From: Brachyhypopomus gauderio
Lineage: Eukaryota > Chordata > Actinopteri > Gymnotiformes > Hypopomidae
Length of the DNA stretch: 64,000 nt
NCBI RefSeq assembly: GCF_052324685.1
Contig: NC_135220.1
Span: 24,532,823-24,596,822, forward strand
Direction: 5' to 3'
Below the pieces are notes generated by a model, which saw only the letters and a list, made by a program, of their open reading frames with translations, had not been told where the DNA came from and ran no database searches. Shown here piece by piece: positions 3,537 through 51,839 of the stretch. Positions within the stretch are counted from its first letter, which is position 1. Every line of letters begins with the position of its first letter. A program made the position numbers and the translations under genes.

Positions 3537-5486
3537 ATGAAACTCTACAGTTTAAGTGTGTTGCACAAAGGCTCGACTAAGGCTAACCTACTTAAAGCCG
3601 CCTTTGACTTGTCTTCGTTTAGTTTTTTTCAGCGGTCCAGGTGGGTATCCAAATATGAATATGAATTAGGATTTCTACTAACTAAGAAATAGTACGAGCT
3701 TGCCCCTAATGTGCAGTTACACATGTAGAGTTGTGCTCGTCGCATGTCCTTAATTTAATTATTATTTTCATCTCATCCAGTGTTCAGGAGTTCATGACGT
3801 TCACCAGCGCCCTGATAGTGGAGCGATCGTCTTTAGGGAGTCGCGCTTCTATAAAAGAACAAGGTTGGTACCAGGGGGCTGGAAACGGGCCCCGCTTTAC
3901 GCACGGGTCCATAATTATTCAGAACCGGTCATTACTTTCGCTGTTACTGGACGTGTAAATTAGCAGGCTGCTGTTTCCTCAGCCTTTAGTTTCACTGCAG
4001 TTGGAACAAGGAACTGGCCAGCTGGTGATTATCTGTCAAATTTTACAAGGGCACATCAAATACTGAATGCAAATACAAAGTATTTTCATAACATACAACT
4101 GAACTTCATTGTTTTCTATTAATTAACTGGCCAAATTTGTGGTAATATAATTCACATTAAAAAAATTGTAATCTTATCAAATGACTTAAATCACAGTCAT
4201 TATGTGCCTTAAGCTTGGCACCTTTAGTAAGAGCTGAAAGGAAGCCAGAAGAAGGCTACACAGGGCAGTAAACACGGCTGGTTCTGATGTGATGTGTTCT
4301 CTCTAGCCCGACTTGACAGACAAAGCTGATCATATCTGTTCCACAGAATACTTGTGTCACGTCTACGTTCGAAATGACAGTCTCTGCGGAGTGGTGATTG
4401 CCGACAATGAATACCCCTCCAGAGTGTGCTTCACACTGCTCGATAAGGTGGGACGTTGTGTTCTTGGAAAGAGCTCAGGGAAGGGCACGCTGGTGTTTAC
4501 CGATAAGTATTAAAGCCTGTTTGATGCATGCAGGAGAAAACAATCGTCTAATTTGACAGTGTTATGGTTTCACTTTTGGTTTGGAGGATATACACATTTT
4601 TTCTTTGCGTTTCTCTTTGCGTGCCGGCTTAAAGCCGACCCAGCACAGCCTGATCAATGAGTCTGTGTTCTTTAAAGCATCACACTCCTGTTGCAGGTGC
4701 TGGAAGAGTTCTCTCGGCAGGTGAACAGCATAGACTGGCCTTCAGGTTCACCAACCACCATTCAGTACACAGCCTTGGACAGCTACCTGGCCAAGTATCA
4801 GGTATGATGCGTTTTTCCTTCATAAGGCTGGAAAGTGAACTGCGACAGTTCCTGCTGGCGCACGCTGCACGGCTGAGTCATTCTTCACAAGCATGATCTC
4901 ATTTATTTGACAGAATCCACGTGAAGCGGACGCCATGAGCAAAGTACAAGCTGAACTGGATGAGACTAAAATTATTCTGGTGAGAAAACGTAGATGCGTA
5001 AGCAGGTCGCCATTCACTGCTTTATTTATTAGGTGATTGTATTCCACCTGTAATGTCGTTTCCCTGTCAGCCGTGCATGGCGTTAGAAGGACCATATCCC
5101 CTTTTAGTCTTTTAGGGAAGACTGTCTCCTTTTACAGCACAACACTATGGAGTCTCTACTGGAGAGAGGCGAGAAGCTGGACGATCTGGTTCAGAAGTCA
5201 GAGCACCTGGGCAACCAATCGAAAGCCTTTTACAAAACGGTTAGTAGCACACTCACTACACATGGTTCAGGATGGCTAGACAGCTCTGCGGGGCACAGTG
5301 AGAGCTGTCCCACAGTTAGGAGCACTTACCCACACAAGGCTAGCATAAAGAACTGTTGGCTAAAGGCAGGGCTCTAGCCGCTCGGTCCTGCTGGATTTCA
5401 TAATAAAGGCACATCGATGTTGTATGTGCAATGTCTGGTGTCGCCTACAGGCACGGAAGCAGAACTCTTGCTGCGAGGTGATGTGA
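3537..5486 (+). CDS. ykt6: YKT6 longin-type R-SNARE
   Basis: YKT6 drives membrane fusion in ER-Golgi, endosomal and autophagosome traffic, cycling between cytosol and membranes. Seven coding exons: 3537-3640, 3781-3863, 4347-4447, 4697-4801, 4914-4979, 5138-5239, 5451-5486. They give 198 residues, the same length as human YKT6. The protein starts MKLYSLSVL, and the longin domain (about residues 1-130) contains QEFMTFTSALIVERSS and YLCHVYVRNDSL. The R-SNARE core (about 138-195) contains QAELDETKIIL and MESLLERGEKLDDLV. It ends CCEVM, keeping the palmitoylated Cys next to a CaaX farnesylation box (human ends CCAIM). All splice sites are canonical. Confidence 0.99.
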
Positions 5487-8324: not shown

Positions 8325-8678
8325 TGAACTGTGCTGTATGATTATTCTTGAACTATAGTTATTCCTGAACTATATGACTGAACTATAGTTAGTTAACTAC
8401 TTGGTAGCATGTCACAGCTTTTAAGATGTATAAGTAGTTAGCTCGGATGGTGTTACAACCCTCGCACTACAGTCCTGACTTGTTTACACACACATAAAGA
8501 TGCTACAGATTATATTCGGGAGTATAGTATACTTTCGACAGACATTGTGTTGGCATCACTAAAATTATACTCCCGTTATTAGAAATAACCCCTGTTGAAC
8601 GTAGACATGTGCTTTATATATACATATAGCGTACACATCCAGATAAGTCCTCAAAGACGTTAACCAGACGATTCAGTC
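8325..8678 (-). repeat. Inverted repeat arm A (ddx56 3' end)
   Basis: About 354 bp that recur, reversed and complemented, at 13648-13983. The copies differ by only a handful of substitutions plus two small indels; arm A has an extra ACTATATGACTGA-like duplication near 8370. Its upper edge at 8678 falls in the last sense codon of ddx56, so the ddx56 stop codon (8673-8675) and the whole proximal 3' UTR lie inside the repeat. Confidence 0.93.
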
Positions 8679-11600: not shown

Positions 11601-14256
11601 TGCGAGCAGTCAGGCAGCTGGGAGCCCTGGAGCTTCAGGGTCACCTGTGGAGATCAGGAAGCCACAGATTATGAATAATGTAAATGTGCCATATTTTGTC
11701 AATTGTGATTTTTACACCGCAATCAAAATTTGTCCTCCGCTTTTAACCCATCTGTGCAGTTAGAACACACACACACACACACACACACTCTAGTGATTAC
11801 TAGGGGGCTGTGAATCACACGTGCCCAGAGGGGTGGGTAGCCCTAGCCCGGCGAGCAGTCGGTCTGGGAATCGAACCCACGACACTCCTATCACAAGACC
11901 AGTTCCCTACCACCAGGCCATAATCCTACATAATCTAAGACTAGTCTTAACCTGTCTGTTCCAGATGGAATGCTCCGTTTGTAGAGTATTTATGTCTAAT
12001 CATGCTCATCACTGGTTTTAGGATTGATTCAAATGGTAAACATTTGCATTCCCCATAAAGAATGACTATGAAAATCATCATTTGCATGCTTACAGGATTG
12101 TGCAGAACCAGCTCCTTCAAAGCCTGAACCTCATCATTGAGTGTGGCCGACATGAGGAAAGCTTGGTAGATCTTTGGCAAGTGACTGTAAAGGAACAATG
12201 AATTCAACTTAGGAGGTTCATCACTGAAGACAAGACATTATCGATCCACAAGGAAACCGCAGCAAGATAAGCCAGCCACCAATGGTGCACTAACCAGACA
12301 GTAAACATTTCTGGACAGCAAAGTAGAGCTTTTACCCACAGCAACAACAGCAGGATCTGTGCCACATTTATTTAAGACCTGCACATTAATTCCTACACGC
12401 ACTAAAGGTATGAGAAGTTCGCTGAGGTTCAAAGCACTCACCATATGAGGCTCTTTATGTCGGACTCAAAACCAAAGGAGAAGAGGAGGTCTGCCTCATC
12501 AATGACCAACATCTCCAGAGCAGAGTGCAGAGTCAGGTTCTTGGCATTAATGTGGGCTTGCACACGAGATGGAGTACCAACCACAATATCAGGCTTCTCC
12601 ATCAAAATCGGCCTAAACAACACACATGACCACTTCAGATTACATACATCAAATCTTACAAATATACATATATAATTTTTTTAAGTGTACTGACCTCTGT
12701 GCTGACACGTCTGCTTTGCCCGAGATGTCTGCCACTCGTACGTCCCTGACACAGTAAGCGGTGAGTTGACAAATCATAGTCCGGACTTGCTGTCCCAGCT
12801 CTTTGGTAGGTACCAGCACCAACGCTCGGACAGCCGGGTCACGCACAGTCTGTCACAGGAGTAAGATGCCATCAAACATCAAATCCCTTTGAGCTAAACA
12901 AGTTTTCCTTCCCTTATAACATGAATCCGTGCGATTTGATTTCAACAGTAGCTAATTATAGATACTACCGAAAATGCTTTCTCTTTCTCAACAGGCTTCT
13001 TTTCCGAGCAAAACAGTCTGAAGCTGCAAATTATGAAACACACTGAAATGGATTTACCTGTTTAGAAGTAAGGAGCCCCTGAATAAGTGGAATAGCATAG
13101 GCGGCTGTTTTTCCTGACCCAGTTCGAGCTCTTGCCAGGACATCTTTTCCGTCCAGAGCTAATGGAATGGCTTTCTCTTGAATAAGAGTTGGTTGTGCCC
13201 ATCCCAAGTCTGCAATCGCCTGATATAGTTTATAGAAATGAAGAGGATTATGACAAAGTTATGTACGTAAGATTGCTAGGTCTAGGATCTAGATTGAGAC
13301 AGGTGTTGCTCAGCAGAATCCGACTCCCCACGTTTGCATGCACATAAAGACGCTACAGATGATGTATGTGATATCCGTTGTTTCTATGCATGAATAAGGA
13401 CTAAGTTTTAATGATCCAAAACAACATACTTGCTATACCGAAGTTCACCTCTGACCACGCTACTTCGTAGTATTACTTTGTTCCTCGTCATTACTGACAA
13501 CCTTACATCTGATATATCTTACTGACAACCTGACTTATTTCCTTTTTAATAAAATATTTTCCAATTATTCCCTAAATATGTCCAAATATATAGTTAGGAC
13601 AAAACTAGAGTGCTCAATGAACTAAGTTATAATCACGGTACTCACAGGACTGAATCGTCTGATTAACGTCTTTGAGGACTTATCTGGATGTGTACGCTAT
13701 ATGTATATATAAAGCACATGTCTACGTTCAACAGGGGTTATTTCTAATAACGGGAGTATAATTTTAGTGATGCCAACACAATATCTGTCGAAGGTATACT
13801 CCCGAATATAATCTGTAGCATCTTTATGTGCGTGTAAACGAGTCAGGACTGTAGTGCGAGGGTTGTAACACCATCCGAGCTAACTACTTATACGTCTTAA
13901 AAGCTGTGACATGCTACCAAGTAGTTAACTAGCTATAGTTCAGGAATAACTATAGTTCAAGAATAATCTTACAGCACAGTTCAGCGTTTCGTGTGTCCTG
14001 TCACACAAGATGACGATTATCCAGAATCGAATCGAAATTAATGCGTTAGCATAGCAAACGGAGACTAGCCTAGCCCACAGAGATAGTTAGCTAGTGTCCT
14101 GCCACAGGATTGAGGGAATGCTCGACATAATATTCCCCGGATAATTCGTTTGACACTTAAAATGGCAGGCTGTTAATCTTTGTATTCAGACAGAAATACC
14201 TTTAAAAGACGATCGTCCAAACCCATCTCATGAAACTGAAGCCTGTCGGTCGCCAT
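8673..14256 (-). CDS. ddx56: DEAD-box RNA helicase DDX56
   Basis: Nucleolar ATP-dependent RNA helicase for large-subunit ribosome assembly. Fourteen coding exons from the 5' end: 14256-14200, 13219-13058, 12849-12695, 12612-12442, 12184-12094, 11644-11403, 11278-11132, 10971-10858, 10772-10678, 10545-10472, 9427-9338, 9255-9150, 9054-8957, 8801-8673. They give 576 residues (human 547). Motifs: Q-motif region [13 protein letters not shown], Walker [20 protein letters not shown] in [16 protein letters not shown] in LMSATLND, motif VI HRVGRTARAD, then a Lys-rich tail. The start ATG ([18 protein letters not shown]) matches the family N-terminus. Intron 6 appears to have a GC donor (11402-11401), because only this join restores [15 protein letters not shown]. 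Intron 10 carries a hAT-like element, the intron between exons 5 and 6 a SINE, and intron 1 an inverted repeat arm. Confidence 0.98.
9479..10379. mobile_element. hAT-like nonautonomous DNA transposon in ddx56 intron 10
   Basis: About 900 bp bounded by terminal inverted repeats, CAGGGTTCATAC at the left and GTACGAACCCTG at the right. Subterminal repeats of the type CCATGACTTTTCC occur near both ends. The flanks acctttac and gctttaac agree at 6 of 8 bases, as expected of an aged 8-bp hAT target duplication. No transposase is seen inside. It sits between ddx56 exons 11 and 10 and should be spliced out. Confidence 0.7.
11700..11932 (-). mobile_element. tRNA-derived SINE, reverse orientation, in ddx56 intron
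   Basis: Read on the minus strand it begins with an A-box-like TGGCCTGGTGGTAGGGAA. About 50 bases on comes a B box GGTTCGATTCC (plus-strand 11866-11880 region). A short body, a CA/GT microsatellite (about 11766-11790) and an unrelated tail follow. This is the layout of a Pol III tRNA-type SINE common in fish. It is unlikely to be active, judged only by the imperfect A box. Confidence 0.6.
13648..13983 (+). repeat. Inverted repeat arm B (ddx56 intron 1)
   Basis: 336 bp that are the reverse complement of 8325-8678. It lies in ddx56 intron 1, antisense to the ddx56 3' UTR copy, about 5 kb away. It starts gactgaatcg, the antisense-side equivalent of the ddx56 Asp-stop codons, and ends ...cacagttca. 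Outside the two small indels I count fewer than ten mismatches with arm A. Confidence 0.93.
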
Positions 14257-14492
14257 CTTTCCACGTGCGTTCGCCAATGCCGAAAAGTGGTCAGAGGCGA
14301 TATCAGCACGTGTGAGTCCAGTGAAAAGTCCGGAGATATAATTTCTTACTGAACAGTAAAGCAATTTAAGGCAACTGATATAGAGTTAGCTCATTAGAAA
14401 TAAGCTAATCAATCCAATCGTGAATAATGTAAATAAACTAATGAGAGGCCAACTGCTCTGTGGAGTCCTCCCAGTCCAAATAAGCTACGTCT
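14257..14492. promoter_or_regulatory. ddx56 upstream region
   Basis: The start of the divergent spacer between ddx56 (-) and ccar2 (+). It presumably contains the ddx56 transcription start within the first 100-200 bases. No TATA box is apparent, as expected of a housekeeping promoter. Confidence 0.4.
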
Positions 14493-14840
14493 GAGGCCCC
14501 GCCGCTAGGTGGCAGTAGTGCGTGTCTGTGGAGGCCCCGCCGCTAGGTGGCAGTAGTGCGTGTCTGTGGAGGCCCCGCCGCTAGGTGGCAGTAGTGCGTG
14601 TCTGTGGAGGCCCCGCCGCTAGGTGGCAGTAGTGCGTGTCTGTGGAGGCCCCGCCGCTAGGTGGCAGTAGTGTGTCTCAGTAGAGGCCCGCCGCTAGGTG
14701 GCAGTAGTGTGTCTCAGTAGAGGCCCGCCGCTAGGTGGCAGTAGTGCGTCTCGGTGGAGCTCGCCGCTAGGTGGCAGTAGTGTGTCTCAGTAGAGGCCCG
14801 CCGCTAGGTGGCAGTAGTGCGTCTCGGTGGAGGCCCGCCG
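14493..14840 (+). repeat. Minisatellite of nine CTCF-like motifs
   Basis: Tandem units of 36-38 bp, each containing CCGCTAGGTGGCAGTAGTG. The CTAGGT word starts at 14505, 14543, 14581, 14619, 14657, 14694, 14731, 14767 and 14804; a tenth unit is cut short at 14840. Copies 1-5 share a 38-bp unit with GTGCGTGTCTGTGGAGG, copies 6-9 a shorter unit with GTGTGTCTCAGTAGAGG or a close variant. The core fits the CTCF consensus CCRSYAGRKGGCRSY at every position, always on the + strand. It lies in the shared promoter region of ddx56 and ccar2. Confidence 0.95.
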
Positions 14841-15420
14841 CACTTTACTCCACAGAGAAGAGGAAGGAGACAGATCGATAGACAAGAAGCTCGAGGTGAG
14901 TTTGACTTCTAAATGGGAAAGTAATAATATCGTCAGTGAAAATTAATTGTTGACTATCGTTTCGGTGAAAAAAGGCAGTCAGTGAAAACGTAGCTGAATG
15001 CATTTGGCGGTCAGTTGGCAGCTGGCTAGGTTAGCTAGCTAACGGCTTTATGTGCTGTAGGTAGCTCGGAGATACAGGTTAGCTAGCTAGCTGGTTCTCC
15101 TGGCTTGATGGCTGGGAAGCTAAAACCGACCTGGAATTTGATATAGCAGCAGATAAAGTTGCCTTTCCTTAACCAGATGTCAATGATCTGTTATGGTTAA
15201 TACCGAGATTAAGAGTGATTCACTGTTCAAACTGTTGTGCTATTACTAAATATTTAATTTGAACGTTATTTCTTAGGTTTTTTTACAATAACTTTTTACA
15301 GTAGCTTAGTTAGCCACATTTGGCCCATGTTTGTTGTAGTAGAAAGAACCGGTGGAATATATATATATATATATATATATTACGAGGTCTTCCTCCGGTT
15401 CTTTCTACTATATATATATA

Positions 15421-15525: not shown

Positions 15526-16790
15526 ATGGAAACACAGGTACGTTCTATCTTAACCGAGTGTTATAACAGCACTGTTATAACTGCAGTCTTACTCTAGATT
15601 AATTGAAGGAATTGTTTCTCAGATGAGGCAGCGAGTTTTCACAGGAGTCGTCACCCAGCTGCAGGACCACCATGGGATGGTGGACCAGGAGGTGCGCTTC
15701 CCTATAAGGTCTGCGTCTTCGTGCTTCCACTCACGGTGAGTGCTTTACGGTATGGCGCCACGGCCCGCTCACTCTCCTCCGTTGGCATTCTGCAGCGTTG
15801 TGGTGGGGAGAGTGCCCTTGGTTGGCGAGAAGGTGCTGGTGAAGGCGGTGCAGGATCCGTCGCAGCCTGTCAGCTGGACAGCCCAACGAGTGCAGGCGCT
15901 TAATGGACAGGTAGGCTGTCTCTTCATAATATGGTAGATGTGTTTGCAGCGTCAGCCTCCCGACGATTAAATTAAATTGCCCCTCCCGTGTCCTGCTTTT
16001 CACTGTATCCTGTAAGCCGTTCAAGTCTCCTCCTCCGTTGTTGCCCTCCATGTCTACAAACATGAAGCCGGGGATTTTGGGAAATAAACCCCAACCGCTG
16101 CTGAAGTCCCCCAAAATCCCTCCACTTATTCCTAGTATGCAGTCAAACCCAGGTAAGAGAGTTGTTCTTATTAAAATACCCAATGCTACTTTTACAATAA
16201 CGGCTTCATGGTGTAATCCCCAAGAGCACAGATTCCTTGTTTCATTCCCTGTATATCCTGATTTCCAACCTGGTTTGTGTCTCAGGTGGTATGCACCAGA
16301 TGCCGCATCACCAGCAACTGCCCTGGACTCCTCCATTTGACGGCTGGGGCGGGGGAGGCAGGAAGAGACACTGCGAGGCCATAGGAGGGCGACGAGGTGG
16401 CCGCTGGTGAGTTATTCCCCTGTGGTTTGCATTGCTCCAGGAGGTCGTTTTGAGATTTGAGTCTTGTCGTCGTCATGGCTTGGCAAGTGAAGTTGGCCTG
16501 GTTAGAGCACGGCTGCTATTCAGGCCTCTGATTGTCTTTTTTGTTCCGGATGGGCTCTGTGTACACTCCAAGCACATGGGCTCATCCATCCCAACCCGTC
16601 CCCTGCTCTGTTCTTTGGCTCAGGGAGGAGGGTGGAGCCCCCTGGTCATGTGACAGCTCACACCTGAAGAGGAGGAGGTGGAGAGCCCCGGCTGAGGATG
16701 AGGTGCCGAAGAAGAGCAGCTCCGTGGCTACCCAGAGTGCACCTCTCTTCTCCCGCTTCCCACGAGATAGGTGCCTGTGCTTAGGACATA

Positions 16791-21728: not shown

Positions 21729-24199
21729 ATGGTAAAAATGTTTTTAATGATTTTGGTATACCGTCTAGTTATTTTACCCTGGCGGCCAAAGCCACACGTT
21801 CTCTTGTTCGTGTTTTATTTTGTTAATATTTCCATCCATCTTTTTTTGCGTAAAACGCGACTCGCCGTGTTTTAGAAAGACAGCTACAGTTAGCTAGCAT
21901 GTTGCGGTGAAAGAGCGCCAACCGCTGTAGCTACACAAGTAAACCTTGTGCGTTTTCCAGGGAAGATTTTATTACATTTTGCTAGGCACAATAAATTATT
22001 TGTTAAGTACTATTACTGCACGTCCGTATTAAATAATTGCATTAGGTGGAGATTTCCCACCTGTTTTATCTAGTTGGATAACTCGCTAGAGCGGTTGTGT
22101 AATGATCTTATAAGCTGCTTCGCTAATTAGCCGGTGGTGTGTGGCTAATGTTAGCGTGGTGGGCTTGGCGCCTCTCCCCTCAGTAACGGACGGAACTAGC
22201 CGGCGGCCGCTGCTCGGTTAGCTGCTATTGGCTAGCTCGGTTACGTTGGACAGATAGCATCGCTAGTTAGCTGATTGATTACTATAGGTTCAAGTGAAAC
22301 GTAAACGTTTATTAGTAACTTACGCCCTCGGCGGTGGAAATATTTGTCTAAACATGTTGGAGCAATCTAGTTAACTAAGTTAATATTAGTTAAGTTAATA
22401 TTAGATAAGTTAATGTTAGTTTTTCGGTAGCAACATGTTGGGTATCTTATCGAGGTAGTATTTGTGGCGTCTTGTACGGTCATTTGAACGGTTAGTTAAG
22501 TTGACCCATATCTTGGACATTTAACCGGTTAACTAGCATGGCTATTATTAATTTAGGAGATGGACCGTTTATTTTATATCTAGGTTAGTCTTAGGAAGGA
22601 TGGATAACGTAGATACCTGATTCGGATTAAGATTATTATATAATATAAATGATATACAGATTATATAATTTTATATATTTTTATCTAGGTTACTGTTAAC
22701 ATTAGATAGCTAACTCGAATTAAACGTATTATATAAACTGTTGGTGTATTGGTTTTCAAGATTTCTACAAGTGACCATCTGCCTGTTTCTCTCAGTTAAT
22801 ACCGCTATTTCGCTATTTGACATGAGTAAATTGAATTGCCACTTTTGGAAACACTTTTGTTTGACTTTGTTAAATTAAAACGAGAATATTAAATTTGGTG
22901 GCTAAATGGGTTACTTTATTAGAAATGTCTGAATTTAAGAGACTGATGAAATGTTGAAATGCCACATTCCTATTTCACGAATCGCTAGGCAGGTGGAAAG
23001 GCTGGGAAAGACAGCGGCAAAGCCAAGGCGAAGGCGGTTTCCCGATCCCAGAGGGCTGGTCTGCAGGCAGGTGTATTTCTCTCGGTCAGTAAGATGCACA
23101 TGCTCCGAGGAGAAGGCGTGTCATGACGGCTGTGCTTTGTCCTGTAGTTCCCGGTAGGTCGTATCCACCGGCATTTGAAGACGCGCACCACGAGCCACGG
23201 GCGCGTGGGCGCCACTGCAGCCGTGTACAGCGCCGCTATCCTGGAGTACCTCACTGCTGAGGTAAAGCTGGAGAGCCACTGTCTCACAGGGGGGCGGGGT
23301 GTTTATGTTAAAGATTGTCATCTGGACTATGGTTTTGTTTTTCTTTTAAATGTTTATATAAAAAAAGAATGCATTCGACTGCATTACCAAAGTTGCTGCA
23401 TAATACAATTTGTGCCCAAAAGCATTTGTAAACTCTTAACTACACATGGTAAAGGTCTGCCTGCATTATGGTGACCACATTATTTGTTTGTTGAATCACA
23501 AAAATCCAGTATGGTCTGATATTAATCCGTGTGCTCACAGGCCATGACCTGAAGGTTACTGATTTGTAAGAAGCCTTAATTGCGTGTTGAAACCACGGTG
23601 CTCCGTTTGTACACTACAGTGTTGATAAAAGGTGGATGGTGCTGCTTCGCGAGCGGCTGCAGGGTGTTTGTGCTTTAGCCCCATGATGTGATTCAGCCTC
23701 CTGCCCACGTGTGTGTGTCAACAGGTGTTGGAGTTGGCAGGTAATGCATCAAAGGACTTGAAGGTGAAGCGCATCACACCGAGACATTTACAGCTGGCCA
23801 TTCGTGGTGACGAGGAGCTGGATTCGCTCATCAAAGCCACCATTGCTGGTGGAGGTTGGTGTTACACACACACAGGCATCAACCGGGCTGATGTAATGAA
23901 AGCACTGACACCCCAGACGTGTGCTGAAGCTCCAATCACTAGATCTCCTTCTGCTAGTCAAGTTATTTTTAAAAATGAAAACAACCGGGACTCGTCTAAT
24001 TTTCCTTGGTGGCCGTTACAACGTGGTATTCATGGTGCCTACTTAACATCAGGCTTGAAGTGTTGGTTTAGTAAGAAACTGAGCCTAGGCCATTGCTTTT
24101 CCTCTTGTGTTTACTCAGTTCTGTTCTGTCCTTGTAGGTGTGATTCCACACATTCACAAGTCACTGATTGGGAAGAAGGGCCAGCAGAAGACTGCGTAG
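21729..24199 (+). CDS. h2az2: Histone variant H2A.Z.2
   Basis: Replacement histone placed at promoters and +1 nucleosomes by SRCAP/p400-type remodellers. Coding exons: 21729-21731 (the ATG alone), 22989-23066, 23148-23261, 23725-23854, 24138-24199, giving 128 residues, the exact family length. It reads [17 protein letters not shown], then [57 protein letters not shown] and ends KKGQQKTA; the final Ala points to H2A.Z.2 rather than H2A.Z.1. The acceptor ctag before GCAGGTGGAAAG gives ATG-GCA-GGT. The second intron appears to have a GC donor: GGTCTGCAG is followed by gcaggt, and using the GT four bases later would shift the frame. Confidence 0.98.
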
Positions 24200-24296: not shown

Positions 24297-26122
24297 TGGA
24301 GAGGGCAGTTGTTTGTATGTTTATCCCTTTGTCGGGTTATTTTGTAACCGTAGTTTTAACATTTAATAGTTTCCTTTTTAAATTGGTTAAAGAGACACAG
24401 AGTTCTCAATGTAATATGTCATTATTATCGGCATGTGTTCTGAATCTGTTTTATACATAAAACATTGAACTTTTCTTAAATATTTGAATTGTTATGGTTA
24501 TTTCAATAGTGTTGACTTGAGCCATAATAACATCATTCTAGTCCTGATCATTCTACATCATTTGAGATGTTGAGCCACAAGCTGACTTGTTAGCAATGTA
24601 TTTAATGTAAATGAAGGTGATTACTTTGTTACTTGAAAAAGCAGATTTTGTTTTAAAGTATTCACAAGTCTAAAGAAATAAGAAATTTTAGATGGGCCTG
24701 CTAACAAATAATTTATCTTCCAGTATCAGATCTCTGTCCTATCCAGTGTCAGAATAGGCAATAAGTTGTCACACATAGACACACATAATCGTGTTAAGCT
24801 GTAACACGTCTTCACAGATGTCCTAGCACCCTGTAACTGCTGCATTTAGTACTGTCCAGGGGTGGCACCCTCCAGTATTTCTAGTTCAGTTGGACAGATG
24901 GAGTGGTAGTGGTAGCTTCAGTCTCACAGCTATATGCTTCCCTTCAAATTCATCCCATACTGATACAATCATGGATGCAAACTATAGTGGAACAAAACAC
25001 TTTCAAAATATTTGAAGATATATGTGATTCTTAATCTCAGGAAAGATACCAATTGTAAATACTCTAGTATATTTTAGAAGACGAGGTCAAACAACGAAGG
25101 GATGTCACGCTGACCATTTCTCATGATGAGATTACACTTTTGGCATCTTCATTAATTACAGATTGTAATAATTCATGGTAGCTGAGTCATGTGAGCCTGT
25201 GAGAATGATTGTGTGTGTGTGTGTATGTTGTGGCTTCCTGTAATTATGCCTTAGACGGAGCACAGACCATCTAACATTATCTATCATTTAATTTCAGTAT
25301 GAAACCGAAAGCAGATTCAGAATGATCATTTTAAGAAATCAAGACATTGTGATTAAAGCCTGAGTTGCCTGAGCTTGAATGCTGTGCCTTGACTGTACAC
25401 GTATGTTCCTGCTCATGCAAACAGAAAACACCCCCCTCCCCTCCTAGTGTCTAGCTTTTATAGAGATCAGCGGCTGAAACTAAAGTATTCTGCAGGGGTG
25501 CAACAAACCGCTGTGATGGGGACAATAAACGAGTCCACATGTGCACACTCAACAGCCTGTAGCTGTATTCTCCATTGAACATTACAAAACTTTGGTTTTC
25601 AGGGGTAGTTGCACCATGTAATAAACAATGGTGACTATTTTGATTTAGAATGACTGCATTATAATAAAAGTATTTTACCATAGGTTTGACTGTTTTTGCA
25701 TTTTGTCAACCTGTCACATAAGAGCAAAACACATTTGGAATGATATGTTCTTGCTACCGAGGGTTATTTTGTTATTGTTACCTTTCCACTAGAAAGGACA
25801 TGATCACGGTTTTGTCTTTAGACATTTAGAAATTATTCCTATATTTGGTACTATTGTGCCATCTGTTAATCACGTGTGGAAGAGCAGATGCCAAGCAATT
25901 AAACAGCAGCATTCAGACAAACATTTATTACATGGTCATATTGTACAAATAAACATGAACAAAATATACCTTTAAATGACGTGTGTACTTAAATATTTAA
26001 CATCTAAAAAACAAACGTACAAAAAAATAGATATTCATTATTGCACTGCACCCTGTGTTCCAGAACGGGTGTCTATAGACACCTCTAAGACTATAGTCCG
26101 CATGTCTCCCAATTCTCCGTTC
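24297..26122. other. Convergent spacer h2az2 - homeobox gene
   Basis: AT-rich DNA with the h2az2 3' UTR at the left. The ved-like 3' UTR is at the right, where a minus-strand AATAAA is read as tttatt near 25924. A short (TG)n lies near 25210. I see no gene here. Confidence 0.5.
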
Positions 26123-27773
26123 TCATTGCGAGCTGAAGTAACGGTGGTGATACGGCTGGAAGGGTGGCACGAGGGCTGGGGTCCCTGGAGGAACAGACAG
26201 GCCCTGGGGGCTCCTGTACTGGTAGAGGGCGCTGGCCGGCACGGGAGTGGCCGCAGGTGGCCCATAGTGGAGACCGGGGGAGCCCAGGTAGGGAGCCGGG
26301 GTCTCCTGGGGCGGGTAGTAGCAGGGGTAGGGGGCCGGCCTGAAAGACTGCAGCTCGGGGTAATGCATGAGCTGGGAGGCGACGTTGGCCTGGCAGGCGT
26401 GAGCCAGTGCGTCCTGCACTGTCCTCTTCAGCTTCATACGTCTGTTCTGAAACCAGTTCCTGATCTGCAAACAAAGGCAAACGGATCGTTACTACACACA
26501 GGAGCACCAGTTTGAGATTAAAGCTTTTTATGTAGTATACTCTAAGACACTAGTATACACTAATTTAAAACACTAAGACACTGTAGTATAGACTACTTTA
26601 AGACACTAGTAATAAATACATTTAAACACGAAGATACTGTAATCATCTTATAATGTTTATTTATTGTTTGTTTTATATTATTGTCTGCTTGTAATGTATG
26701 TTCTTCAAGAGGCTGTGCCTCTTGCCAGGCTGCCATTGCAAAAAAAGCTGTTCTTAATGATTTGCCTGGTTAAATAAAGGTTAAATAAATAAATAAATAA
26801 TAAAAGTAATAAACATTAATTTAAAATACTAAGATACTGTAGTAAACACTAATTTAAAACACTAAGACACTAGTAAACACTAAACACTAGGACACTGTAG
26901 TAAACAATAAGAAGCTCTTGGGCACACAGCTGTAAATCTCGTACCTGTTTATCAGAGAGACTGAGTCTTTTGCAAAGTTCAGCTTTGTCCTGGGCCCCCA
27001 GGTAGGCGTTCCTCTTGAAGGCCCTCTCCAGGTGCTCAATCTGCTCGGTGGTGAAGGCGGTGCGGGCCCGGCGCCCCGTGCCGGGGGAGGTTGACGACGG
27101 GGCGGCCTCCTTGGAGGCGTCAGGTGAGAGGGAGCGGCTGCCTTCACTCTCGTAGCCCGACGTCTCCTCTTCTTCGGCACCGCTGCTGAAACCCAACTCT
27201 GGAACTGCAGTGAAACGAGGGAGGAAGACATTGAGCAGGATTGACCTCTCCTGGAGTTGTGAGTCCCTTTACTTCTGCTGTTATGTTACAGAAGAACGCT
27301 AAACGGTTTACTTGTTTAACTTTGTTTCCTCACAATAATGGTGAACTATGCATACACATTTACAGCAATCAGTTTGTACATTTTCAATACTTGGAATTCA
27401 GTAAATTCTGATTTTCTGAAAGCCAACTGTATGTGTGTGGGGTGGGGGATCATAGGTAGGTTGTTGGTGTCTTACCATGCTGGAGCCTCTCAGGGTTGCT
27501 TGTGTCCTTTTTGTGGTTTGCTGGAGTCATAGCGCCCTGTACAGTAGATGCATCACTCTGCAGAGGTCGTGCTGGCTCAGGCTGATTCTGCTGAGCTCCT
27601 GTGCTACCCAGACTCCAGCTGTAGAAACCCGGGAGACTTTCCGGAACTGTCCCTGAGGTTCTGGCGACATCAGAGGCCACAGAGGTCCAGGAGTTGGGAG
27701 GCTGCTCCACACTCAGGCTCGGTGGACCATGGCTGCTTTGGGACAGCCATTCGATAGAGAAGCGTCCCATCAT
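26123..27773 (-). CDS. ved: VENTX-family homeobox transcription factor, ved-like
   Basis: Sequence-specific nuclear repressor; family members (Vent, Vox, Ved) specify ventral fate downstream of BMP in fish embryos. Three exons: 27773-27476, 27204-26945, 26464-26123; 299 residues. The N-terminus MMGRFSIEWLSQSSHG matches the family signature (human VENTX has SVDWLSQSS). The homeodomain (about residues 143-202) begins GRRARTAFTTEQIEHLERAF and ends IRNWFQNRRMKLKR; all 60 positions are present, with F8, W48, F49, Q50, N51 and R53. The C-terminus is Pro/Tyr-rich (PAPYPCYYPPQE). The intron inside the homeodomain falls after residue 44. Two ATGs are adjacent (27773, 27770), and an open frame continues upstream to 27860. 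Ved is preferred over vox/vent because no tandem paralogue is next to it; that choice is only an inference. Confidence 0.85.
26650..26800 (+). mobile_element. 3' tail of a non-LTR retroelement in ved intron
   Basis: The stretch gccattgcaaaaaa... to tgcctggttaaataaagg, followed by (AAAT)n, has the form of the common fish LINE/SINE 3' end with its short-repeat tail. It lies in the intron between homeodomain exons and is antisense to the gene. Confidence 0.55.
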
Positions 27774-46523: not shown

Positions 46524-47655
46524 TTTAGTTACGCATACGGTACGCGAACTCGCTGGTTTTGAACTGGCATGATTGACAAACTCATTATTGCCATCTGCTG
46601 GACAGACGTTTTGTGGAGTAGTGATGGCAAAAGTGGGGCTTTTGGGAGATCGAATCAAATGAACCAATTGATTCGGAAAATGATTCGATCTTGTGAAACG
46701 TTCGAATCATCACACGCCACAGTGACATTTAGTGGGCAACCAGGGCCTAAATCCACAACTTTATAACAGAAACAGAAGTAATGTGTTTTTTAATGAAAAT
46801 TGACATGAAATATTTCCCCAAAGCATATCCAAGAGTGTAGATCAGTTATTTTTCTTTGAATTTCCTAATTGCTCATTGCTGTCATTACAAAAACTGGCAA
46901 TGCAAACAGAAATGTTCATTATAGTGTCCATTAGTATTAAAATGCCTCGCCATTGGAAATGACAAATCCTTCATTCTAATGGTCCAAATGTCCAACAAAC
47001 AGATCTATGACTTCCTCAGGAAAACCACAGTTCTGATTTTCACACATTTCAATCATTTTCTGGAGGAAGTCTTGTCAAAACAAATGCGCTTAAGTCTCAG
47101 TAGTTGCGATTAAGGGATCGAGTTTTGTATTCTAGATAGGAATGAATGTCCATAGGTTTATAATGTATGGTGGTATTTAAAAACAAGAATTTATAAAAAC
47201 ATTCAAGAAGGTTATCCTCATCCTCAAGTGTGTGCTGTATTCCATGCATATTTAAAAGTTTGCTGGAAAGAACAGTTGGAGCTCTTCTAAATTGTAAGGC
47301 TACAAGTGTATTGTTCAAAAAAATCTTTCTCGACATATAAAACAAAGAAGTGTATAAACGTTTAATGCCCATAAAAAGACAAAAGTTGTCAGGAACTATT
47401 TGTCCTTTCATGCGTTCAAGCTTTTGTCTAAAGTGTGAAGTCTTTAACGTATGTCAGAGTCTTTTATTTTGGTGATTAAGACCGGAAGTATGCTAGACTT
47501 GCGTCCTCCTAGTGGTCTCGTACCTTCTTCGAATCAGTGTCAGTGTGTGTGTACCGTTTATTTCTCTTGCTGTTAAGTAAAACAGTTTAATATAACACAG
47601 CTGTAGAGTTCAGGACTATTTTTTGGTTTCCTTTTGTTTTAAGAATTTTTCAAAA
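46524..47655. promoter_or_regulatory. Divergent mrps24/nudcd3 region
   Basis: About 1.1 kb between the two start codons. It contains a CTCF-like motif at 46589-46601 and, next to it, sequence rich in gattcg/gaatc words (46645-46720) that looks like a degraded dispersed repeat. The mrps24 promoter should lie just above 46523 and the nudcd3 promoter near 47450-47600. The sequence otherwise shows nothing. Confidence 0.45.
46589..46601 (-). promoter_or_regulatory. Single CTCF-like motif
   Basis: The minus strand reads CCAGCAGATGGCA, a full match to CCASYAGRKGGCR. It lies about 70 bases upstream of the mrps24 ATG and points opposite to the array at 14.5 kb. Confidence 0.5.
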
Positions 47656-50375
47656 ATGTCCTCGCCGATGGAAATGACAGAGTTATACGACAATGCTTTG
47701 CTCGGAATCTTGCAGCATGTTGGAAACATTCAGAATTTTCTACAGATCTTCTTTGGCTTTTTGTACAGAAAAACAGACTTCTATCGCCTATTGACCAGCC
47801 CAAATGACCGTATGGGGTTTCCACCAGGAGTAGCGGAAAAAATGGTCCTAAAGGTAATGTTGTATCTATATGGCTGGTTGACTTGGCAAGTTTTCCTTTG
47901 GATACTGCTAGCTTTGTTATTAGCACCTGTCACCAAATTCGTCACAGTGCTTGCGACAGCCTCCCCCTAACCAGATACCCGATCAGTAGTGGTTTTGCGT
48001 TTGTGTCTGACTAATTAACATTTCTGTATTTACGTTAGGTTACTGGATTTTTTTTTTATTATTTGTTGATGTTCTTTTGTGAGTGTCAGCACACAATGCT
48101 AACTAGTTAGCCAGCGGCGTACCTGTAAAATAAAAATACATGCAAAAGTCTTTAGTTGTGGTGTTTCGAAATAGTGGTGCAAAGAATTGATTTTTGTAAA
48201 GTTCATAATTTTTAATCTTTAAACTGAACACAGCCTACTTGTGAACTATGCTCCTCTCCATTATTGCAATGCAAATGAAAAAAAAACTCTCCTCTCTGCA
48301 GACGTTTCGACTGTTCGAAAAGTTGGCCGCGCACGACAGAGAGAGGGCGATGCAGCTCGTTGAGGAAGCGAAAGCTGTGCCCGCAGTAGCGCAAGAGCTC
48401 GAGGTTCAGTCGCAAGCAGAGGACGCGGCATCTGCAGCGGGCAAGGAAGACCCAGCACGCGCCACAGCTTCGCGCGCTGAGCCGCCCGGCGCCGCAGCCT
48501 CAACGTCTCGCGATGAAACAGATGTGCAAAGTGCGGAGAGCGAACAGCCTGCAGGGGCGTCTACGGGGACGGACGCCGAAGACTCTGTAGCAGCGACCGC
48601 GACCGGCTCCGATTCCCGTGCAGATGTGCCGTAAGTGGAGTCAGATCACCTTTAATTACATAGCACGGGTGTCGACCAAAGTGACACCTGTTCAAGTAAA
48701 AAGCAAGTAATGTCCAATAAAGGTCAGTAAAACACAGCAGAACAAGCCAGAGATGAAATGACAGATCTGACACTTTACTACATCATAACGTTCAATTGCC
48801 TGGAAAATAAACTAATAAACAGTAAACAGTCAGTATTTAGCATAGATATAGCTCGGAGCAATGCCATGAAGTACAATTGTATTACATTAACTATAGCAAG
48901 AACGTCCTAAATCGGAATGAGTTATTTTGGTTATTGGTTTATACAGGAATACCATATCGAATTGCAAAGTAAAGCTTTAACAAATATTGAAGCATAATTA
49001 TTGTAATACATTACATACATTACATACATTACATACGAGAACTGAAGCGGTCTTATTGTTTATTTCATAACTCTTTGGTCTGTTATTCATTGTTTTGCAG
49101 TGGGCAGTCAAATTTCCAGTCCAACCCAGATAGTTACAATGGTGCTGTCAGAGAAAACTACAGCTGGTCTCAGGATTACACCGATGTGGAAGTTCGAGTT
49201 TTTGTCCAGCCCAATATTATCAAGGGCAGACAGGTATCTACAGTTGCAGGCATTCAGTGGCCCAAAATCGCAGGCACCACAGTATTCCTATACTGTGGAT
49301 AAATTCACACGTTAAACTATGCAGCTCTACTAAACATCAGTTATGATAACACCTCTAAGTTTACTTGACCACTAGCTATCTGTACATTAAAGCATTTATT
49401 TTTACAGTAATTTTAACTACTTCCTGTAATTACAGTTCTATTTCCAGCTCAACATTGACTCTTTTTTCAGGGTGGACTGTTAACTCTCTCTCTTTGTTTG
49501 CACAGGTGTCTGTCAGTCTTCAGTCTGACAGGGTGCGTGTGGCCGTGAAAGAGGGAATGTCTGAAAAAGTCCTAATGGAAGGCGAGTTCACGCACAAAAT
49601 CAATATGGAGAACTCCCTGTGGAGTCTCGAACCGGGGCAGTGTGTGTTGGTAAGCAGTGAATAATTTTTCTTCTTCTGCATCTGTGGTTTCACTTTTCAG
49701 TCTTCACCAATGGACCTCCTTAGTCATGCCTCTAACACACTGTGAATAGATTGCCTCCAAAATAAAAGTCCTCTGGTACAAAGCAGACCAGTGATCAACA
49801 GAGTAGAGGAACATCAGTGTGTAATTCTATAATTGCAGTAAGGGCTGGTACAAGGCAGATGTTTAAATCTAAAGTGGCCAGTGTTTTTGGAAATGCAGAT
49901 AAAGCAAATATCTTTTAATATTTAGAGTGCAGCAACAGTGGGGGGGGTTCTCCTTTTCTCATCAGCTGTCTCTAAGTAAGTGCGGAGAGGTGTGGTGGAG
50001 TGCAGTGCTGAAAGGAGAGAAGGAGATCGATGTCAACCAGATCAACCGTGAGCGCTCCATGGCCACGGTGGACGAGGAGGAGCACGCCGTGCTGGACCGC
50101 CTCACCTTCGACTACCACCAGAAGCTGCAAGGGAAGCCGCAGAGCCATGAGATGGTAAAGTCACAGGGAGAGTCGGCACGCTTCTGCAGGCAGCGCTGAC
50201 CAGGTTGCACCGTTGAGACGTTTTCTCAAATATTTGTTTTCTGTGTGTGTATGTGTGTGTTTAGAAAGTTCACGACATGCTGAAGAAGGGTTGGGATGCG
50301 GAGGGATCACCGTTCAAAGGCCAGCAGTTCGACCCATCCATGTTCAACATACCCCCAAGCTCCGTCCAGTTTTGA
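47656..50375 (+). CDS. nudcd3: NudC domain-containing protein 3
   Basis: HSP90 co-chaperone that stabilises dynein intermediate chain and WD40/Kelch clients. Six exons: 47656-47853, 48302-48630, 49101-49233, 49506-49649, 49966-50154, 50265-50375; 367 residues (human 361). The N-terminal domain reads ELYDNALLGILQHVGNIQNF and FLYRKTDFYRLL. An Ala/Glu-rich low-complexity linker fills exon 2; it is GC-rich and poorly conserved. The CS domain starts near SNPDSYNGAVRENYSWSQDY and contains VRVFVQPNIIKGRQ and LMEGEFTHKINMENSLWSLE. The C-terminus has ERSMATVDEEEHAVLDRLTF, DYHQKLQGKPQSHE, KKGWDAEGSPF and ends PPSSVQF. All borders are GT-AG. Confidence 0.98.
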
Positions 50376-50989: not shown

Positions 50990-51839
50990 CATCATTACAA
51001 AGGTAGTTTGGCATCTTATATGGCTTAACTATTACTAATATGTTGCAGAAAGAAATTAAAACGGCCTAGAATAGAGCACTTCTGTTAATGTGTTGCAAGT
51101 TTACTCGGTTTCTTTGCCCTACCAAGGTATTCTTCCGCCATCTAGTGGCGATATTATTCCGTGTACAATTTATGGAACACCAAAAGTGCCAAAACAGCAA
51201 CCCAACTTAAGCATTTGAATTTAATATAAATTATGGAATTACAACATATTTTAAACTATATATAAATGCAAACACAGATACTGAATCAATATCTAATGTC
51301 TCTCAATGAGTGATTAATAAATTATTTCCTTAGCCTAAGCTTTATACCTAAATCTTAAAGCACTATCATTAAAGCCATGATCAAGTGACCTCGATCAGTG
51401 AACTTGTTGATTACAGTTACAATTCATTACAGTTTTGCATTGCCGGTTATTAGAATAAATAAACCATCTGCTAAATTCCAGCTCATGAATATTAGCTAGC
51501 AAGTTGAAATGGCATTTATGCAAGTATATGAGTACCTTCAGACAGGGACTGGTCATAACACAGTTGGTAACATCAAAGCTCCACCTACTGACAGATCTAC
51601 CAAAATTCTAAGACCAGCTTATGTGTTGCTTAGCAAACATATAAGTAAATGCTGCACTCCTTGAAATCTAAGCTTTGTAAAAAGTCAATGTGACTATAAG
51701 AGCCTTCATTCAGAACTCAGTGTACCACCGGACCAAAGCAATTGATCTTCTAAAGACCACATAAGAGACCTAGAAGATAGTTATAAATACTTAGGGATTA
51801 TGTAGTCACGTGAGAACTATGAGGTAAGAATTGGGGTAG
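50990..51839. other. Spacer with one CTCF-like motif
   Basis: AT-rich intergenic DNA. The only item of note is CCACTAGATGGCG on the minus strand (51136-51148), a full match to the CTCF core. No gene is seen. Confidence 0.45.
51136..51148 (-). promoter_or_regulatory. Single CTCF-like motif
   Basis: The minus strand reads CCACTAGATGGCG, matching CCASYAGRKGGCR. Same direction as the motif at 46.6 kb and opposite to the nine-copy array. Confidence 0.5.

Follow-up and report, generated by a model that had tools for sequence, protein, structure and literature searches.

A nine-unit minisatellite of same-direction CTCF-like sites in a divergent promoter of Brachyhypopomus gauderio: a candidate promoter-proximal CTCF platform

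Between a DEAD-box gene and a CCAR-family gene of the fish Brachyhypopomus gauderio lies a minisatellite with nine exact copies of a strong CTCF-like core, all of which point toward the CCAR-family gene. We tentatively prefer the reading that this array would act as a promoter-proximal CTCF platform aimed at the CCAR-family gene—presumably ccar2—and would raise its transcription directly. Promoter activation is also the most specific hypothesis for the array. Its sequence, copy number, orientation, position, single locus in the assembly and invariant core are known directly. Hereafter, the window is the whole stretch of 64,000 nucleotides that was analysed (C10:24532823-24596822), taken from a genome of 796.5 Mb on 840 contigs.

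Tandem Repeats Finder places the minisatellite at 14493-14841 on the plus strand, as the sole array reported there, with a period of 38, 9.3 copies, 94% matches and a score of 544. The array and its cores are:

14493..14841, plus strand: minisatellite of nine full units (36–38 bp) and one partial unit, with one CTCF-like site per full unit, directed at ccar2
14502..14814, plus strand: nine exact cores CCGCTAGGTGGCAG, starting at 14502, 14540, 14578, 14616, 14654, 14691, 14728, 14764 and 14801

The 14-mer CCGCTAGGTGGCAG occurs exactly nine times in the 64-kb window, every time on the plus strand, and no match beyond these nine appears there with up to two mismatches. In shuffled sequence its mean count is 0.33, and a count of nine was reached in 0 of 100 shuffles. 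The cores follow one another at 38, 38, 38, 38, 37, 37, 36 and 37 bp, which confirms the nine same-direction tandem copies that the initial annotation had described. This spacing corresponds to 3.4–3.6 helical turns at 10.5 bp; hence, neighbouring sites would face roughly opposite sides of the DNA. The linker 3' of the core comes in three types—A in units 1–4, B in units 5, 6 and 8, and C in units 7 and 9—and units 1–4 are identical copies. A core kept unchanged amid varying linkers was thus correctly recognized, while the proposed split of the linkers into copies 1–5 and 6–9 is only roughly right, since another choice of unit boundary would shift it. The B and C linkers differ by three substitutions, two of which change a CpG to TpG or CpA; the CpG of the core, likewise noted in the initial annotation, is intact in all nine units. 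With a CpG observed/expected ratio of 0.74 against 0.56 for the window, and with one CTCF-like site in each short tandem unit, the array shows two of the features of a DXPas34-like CTCF minisatellite.

The described location in a divergent promoter spacer holds as well, since the array sits between a minus-strand DEAD-box gene and a plus-strand CCAR-family gene:

14176..14256, minus strand: start of the DEAD-box (ddx56-like) gene, from the reading frame, with the ATG at 14254-14256
14842..14895, plus strand: putative non-coding first exon of the CCAR-family (ccar2-like) gene, from an initiator-like match with its A at 14847 and a splice donor after 14895
15624..15910, plus strand: first recognized coding exons of the CCAR-family gene, with an S1-like domain (Pfam E 2e-30) and approximate exon ends

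For the left-hand gene, Pfam finds a DEAD domain (E 5.6e-33) on a downstream fragment. We take this gene to be ddx56, a provisional name, as a search of solved structures returned only other DEAD-box helicases among the best 60 matches. The right-hand gene carries, in addition to the S1-like domain, a DBC1 domain (E 8.5e-19); a fourth fragment of it has no Pfam match. We assume that it is ccar2 and not ccar1. A distance of 237 bp separates the ddx56-like ATG from the near end of the array. Just past the other end, a splice donor (GAG|GTGAGT, 14893-14901) follows the A at 14847, which is the sole plus-strand initiator match in 14815-14900, and a short non-coding ccar2-like first exon directly after the array is therefore probable. 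Relative to 14847—a start proposed from these signals—the core centres lie at -338, -300, -262, -224, -186, -149, -112, -76 and -39, five of the nine being at most 200 bp upstream (-186 to -39). The sites are forward toward ccar2 and reverse relative to ddx56.

Several further features of this neighbourhood can be appreciated. The GC skew goes positive (0.14 to 0.23) across the array and the probable ccar2 start, as followed over 14250-15249. The ddx56-like start codon lies inside a YY1-like AANATGG match, with two CACGTG boxes just upstream (14253-14312). Most of the ddx56-like gene is flanked by inverted copies of a repeat element at 8325-8678 and 13648-13983, whose arms are 96–98% complementary. 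The two copies are 93% alike overall, against 72–86% for 38 other genome copies (40 of 229 candidates were scored), and this closeness suggests a local duplication or gene conversion. Pfam domains identify four more genes in the window:

3540-4750: Longin-domain gene
23000-23860: histone H2A.Z-like gene
26100-27300: homeodomain gene
47600-48000: Nudc_N-domain gene

We take the Longin gene to be ykt6-like, the homeodomain gene vent-like and the Nudc_N gene nudcd3-like; the gene block is presumably similar to human 7p13, apart from the added CCAR and homeobox genes.

The match of the cores to CTCF was judged with two motif descriptions. A scan with a working CTCF count matrix, the check proposed in the initial annotation, gives 18.35 bits for eight cores and 19.0 bits for copy 8, of a possible 26.1, which corresponds to p = 0.9-1.5e-7 per core. 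The initial annotation saw a fit to the CTCF consensus at every position, which is nearly correct; the exception is a G at matrix position 6, a minority base (7%; A 82%). The second description is SNMGGNGGCRGNV, a scanning consensus for CTCF given in a figure legend of PMC3149622; it matches all nine cores, and the window contains 12 matches to it where 1.0 would be expected. A literature search for a further consensus, CCGCNNGGNGGCAG, which is not used as evidence, found no papers. On the protein side, the genome encodes CTCF-like zinc fingers at C2:23466743-23467469, in three pieces short of an assembled full gene, which are 83–95% identical to a segment of human CTCF; the next best place, among 150 of 1512 candidates that were scored, reaches 39–44%. 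The two motif descriptions and these fingers together support the CTCF-like identity of the sites, and binding of CTCF at the array is predicted as likely. Excerpted text of PMC6600276 states that methylation at position 2 of a 15-bp CTCF sequence affects binding. In our own alignment the position-2 cytosine of the array cores precedes a G, which makes methylation sensitivity of these cores plausible.

The reading as a promoter-proximal platform joins this geometry to a rule reported for mouse cells, not fish. According to PMC12695661, CTCF whose motif is forward and lies a short way upstream of the start (median about 79 bp) activates promoters directly and without cohesin; from further upstream it blocks antisense transcription, and at or just after the start it represses. 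The nine sites are forward to ccar2 at -338 to -39; hence, if the rule carries over, direct activation of ccar2 would be predicted from sites that point at this gene about 40–340 bp upstream of its likely start. Such rules of position and orientation would favour direct promoter activation over the strong insulator or loop anchor suggested initially. Weighing against the platform are a constraint P of up to 0.08 with fewer events, the four identical units, and a comparison array (L087, see below) whose core is also invariant.

Nearly as likely is a neutral origin, in which a stretch containing a single CTCF-like site was amplified by slippage or unequal exchange; nothing would then depend on the array, although CTCF may bind it. 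The identity of units 1–4 is what recent copying is expected to leave, and tandem CTCF-like cores are common in this genome. The 13-base cores CCACTAGRKGGCR and CCGCTAGRKGGCR form 43 and 28 tandem pairs, respectively, with 12–42 bases between the partners. Grouped by position, these amount to 14 + 6 = 20 loci, ten of which hold at least three pairs, and the linkers are unrelated among the loci. For the 10-base core, 226 tandem pairs among 19,221 occurrences (1.2%; the first 100 pairs listed by position) compare with 64 of 2,763 for its reverse (2.3%), 251 of 8,892 for a shuffle (2.8%) and 41 of 3,293 for the reverse of the shuffle (1.2%)—counts in which pairs inside one array are not independent. 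CTCF cores thus enter tandem repeats at a rate similar to or below that of other words, and with 20 such loci and a tandem rate no higher than in three controls, the claim that same-direction CTCF arrays are unusual does not stand. As such tandems are common and not over-represented against controls, a chance origin of the array needs no explanation. The idea that CTCF cores attract minisatellites, prompted by 226 against 64 pairs, was rejected on these rates. Counting against that rejection, the 13-base CCGC core has 28 pairs among 577 singles, and its shuffle has 0 pairs with its singles uncounted; the reverse has 0 pairs among 11 singles, and the picture is less clear for the 13-base form than for the 10-base core.

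The array itself is found at one place. The exact 14-mer occurs 20 times in the genome, nine times in the array and 11 times elsewhere, and in a search that skips very common words the 521-bp array region has one genome match, namely itself. The same minisatellite at many unrelated loci, which the initial annotation had named as an argument against a CTCF role, is therefore not what was found. An origin of the array from a dispersed repeat family was rejected on this self-match and on a blast search with the unit and with the array, which in the remainder of the window gave only matches of at most 19 bases with an E of at least 0.19. When viral contigs were scanned for the 14-mer, 33 stretches each matched it once, which was taken as chance.

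Set against the neutral origin are the position and orientation of the array, which match the published activating geometry, and the invariance of its core next to variable linkers. For the latter, the window array was compared with 16 other arrays, 15 of which were scored (the core of L060 was unscored); L047, L053 and L059, whose match lay outside any repeat, and L048, with two copies only, were left out. The window array shows zero variation in the 10-base core, while variation in the rest of its unit is 0.085 (one gap column included), the highest of the 16 arrays scored. Among the 15 others, the core varies in ten and is invariant in L043, L051, L054 and L081—each with at most three units—and in L087. 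Of ten other arrays with at least five units, half (L037, L045, L055, L092 and L096) vary in the core at least as much as in the rest and half (L070, L080, L082, L087 and L099) vary less in the core. The comparison arrays should lean toward conservation, as they were found through intact cores. In the window array, the seven polymorphic columns all fall outside motif positions 2–19, with P 0.006 under independence; variants of the test give P 0.027 (14-mer), 0.045 (19-mer, one allowed) and up to 0.085 (five events). Hence, constraint on the core is suggested, which is not proof.

Two of the comparison arrays deserve a description of their own. L037 (positions 1347-2457; contig C8, near 17.80 Mb) contains a separate 26-bp, 43-copy minisatellite with the half-site of the window array, CCGCTAGGTGG, in which the 10-base core is intact in 12 units and lost in the remainder. 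L099 (contig C29, 914633-915150) is a 33-bp minisatellite of 17.7 units with CCACTAGAGGGCG cores, kept in 14 of them, and holds more CTCF-like sites than the window array.

An improbable alternative is that the array works as a CTCF–cohesin insulator or loop anchor, whose plus-strand sites would halt extrusion and close a loop of 32–37 kb with two distant sites. These are the only others above 15 bits in the window by the matrix scan:

46586..46604, minus strand: lone strong CTCF-like site, 19.4 bits with the CTCF matrix, convergent with the array
51133..51151, minus strand: lone strong CTCF-like site, 20.4 bits with the CTCF matrix, convergent with the array

The one point that the window offers in favour of such a loop is the convergent orientation of both sites, which as loop partners of the array are speculative; convergence of two out of two is itself a 1-in-4 chance. 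Tandem CTCF sites do insulate in mouse and human gene clusters, as excerpts of PMC7087399 describe, but at CTCF-dependent promoters the ratio of cohesin to CTCF is reported to be lower (PMC12695661). Least probable is that the array acts through its G+C-rich linker—as an SP/KLF-type box or by the effect of a CpG island—and resembles CTCF sites only incidentally: five units contain GGCGGGG on the minus strand and the G+C content is 0.64 over 14501-14900, yet GGCGGGG is missing from four of the nine units, GGGCGG was not found in 14251-14900, and the invariant part is the CTCF core and not the linker.

The array can be placed beside several known systems, described here after excerpts of the cited papers. 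By analogy, its form—a short CpG-rich unit with one CTCF site each, beside a promoter—is that of DXPas34, the minisatellite of the mouse Tsix region (PMC3149622). The DXPas34 unit measures 34 bp and the fish unit 36–38 bp. DXPas34 belongs to the rodent X-inactivation centre and the fish array to a protein-coding divergent promoter, and no sequence kinship is claimed; moreover, numbers of CTCF sites and CpGs vary between species in DXPas34 (PMC3149622), whereas the fish array is known from one assembly. Clustered CTCF sites (2xCTS; PMC4562119, PMC10832218) likewise have at least two CTCF motifs close together and are tied to active transcription; they are defined by ChIP-seq and BORIS co-binding, the fish array by nine motifs in the sequence. 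With the activating promoters of PMC12695661 it shares the forward motif just upstream of the start, but it has nine tandem sites and a start read from sequence signals. The tandem CTCF sites of Pcdh and Igh (PMC7087399) also are several in one orientation; those are distributed across gene clusters and influence enhancer–promoter choice, while the fish sites are packed within 350 bp as a minisatellite. The other CTCF-core minisatellites of the B. gauderio genome have same-direction units too, with unrelated linkers and, in 10 of the 15 scored, a varying core. TERRA 61-29-37 repeats were considered as a parallel and set aside; in these, according to excerpts of PMC6600276, about 300 bp separate the CTCF site from the 29-bp repeats. 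Among the matches listed in the open-access literature, judged by title and for queries without the gene name, nothing concerned this fish array or CTCF sites of the ccar2 promoter.

Under the preferred reading as a promoter-proximal platform, local growth of a minisatellite whose unit holds a strong CpG-bearing CTCF site would have placed nine same-direction sites in the divergent promoter spacer. CTCF most likely binds there and, once bound, most likely acts directly on ccar2, holding its promoter open and increasing its transcription. Initiation toward ddx56 may in addition be limited by the far sites, and anchoring of a loop would be a secondary possibility. We infer the transcription start, the occupancy, the activation and the polymorphism: the number of units probably differs between individuals and would then form a dosage series. 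A more far-reaching and rather unlikely version is that the minisatellite has made a divergent housekeeping promoter into a copy-number-tuned CTCF one: the number of forward sites, varying between individuals, would determine the output of ccar2 and how far it is separated from ddx56, in a manner sensitive to methylation, with selection keeping the core of each unit while the linkers drift.

In a minisatellite-rich genome, a CTCF-like minisatellite is by itself not evidence of function. Two questions about CTCF at promoters are under active study: to what extent it acts directly and not through loops, and how the size of its effect depends on the number of sites. If the array is variable in length, a nine-site promoter array in a single orientation would be a natural dosage series for the effect of CTCF, to which about 19 other loci with tandem CTCF cores in the same genome might serve as comparisons.
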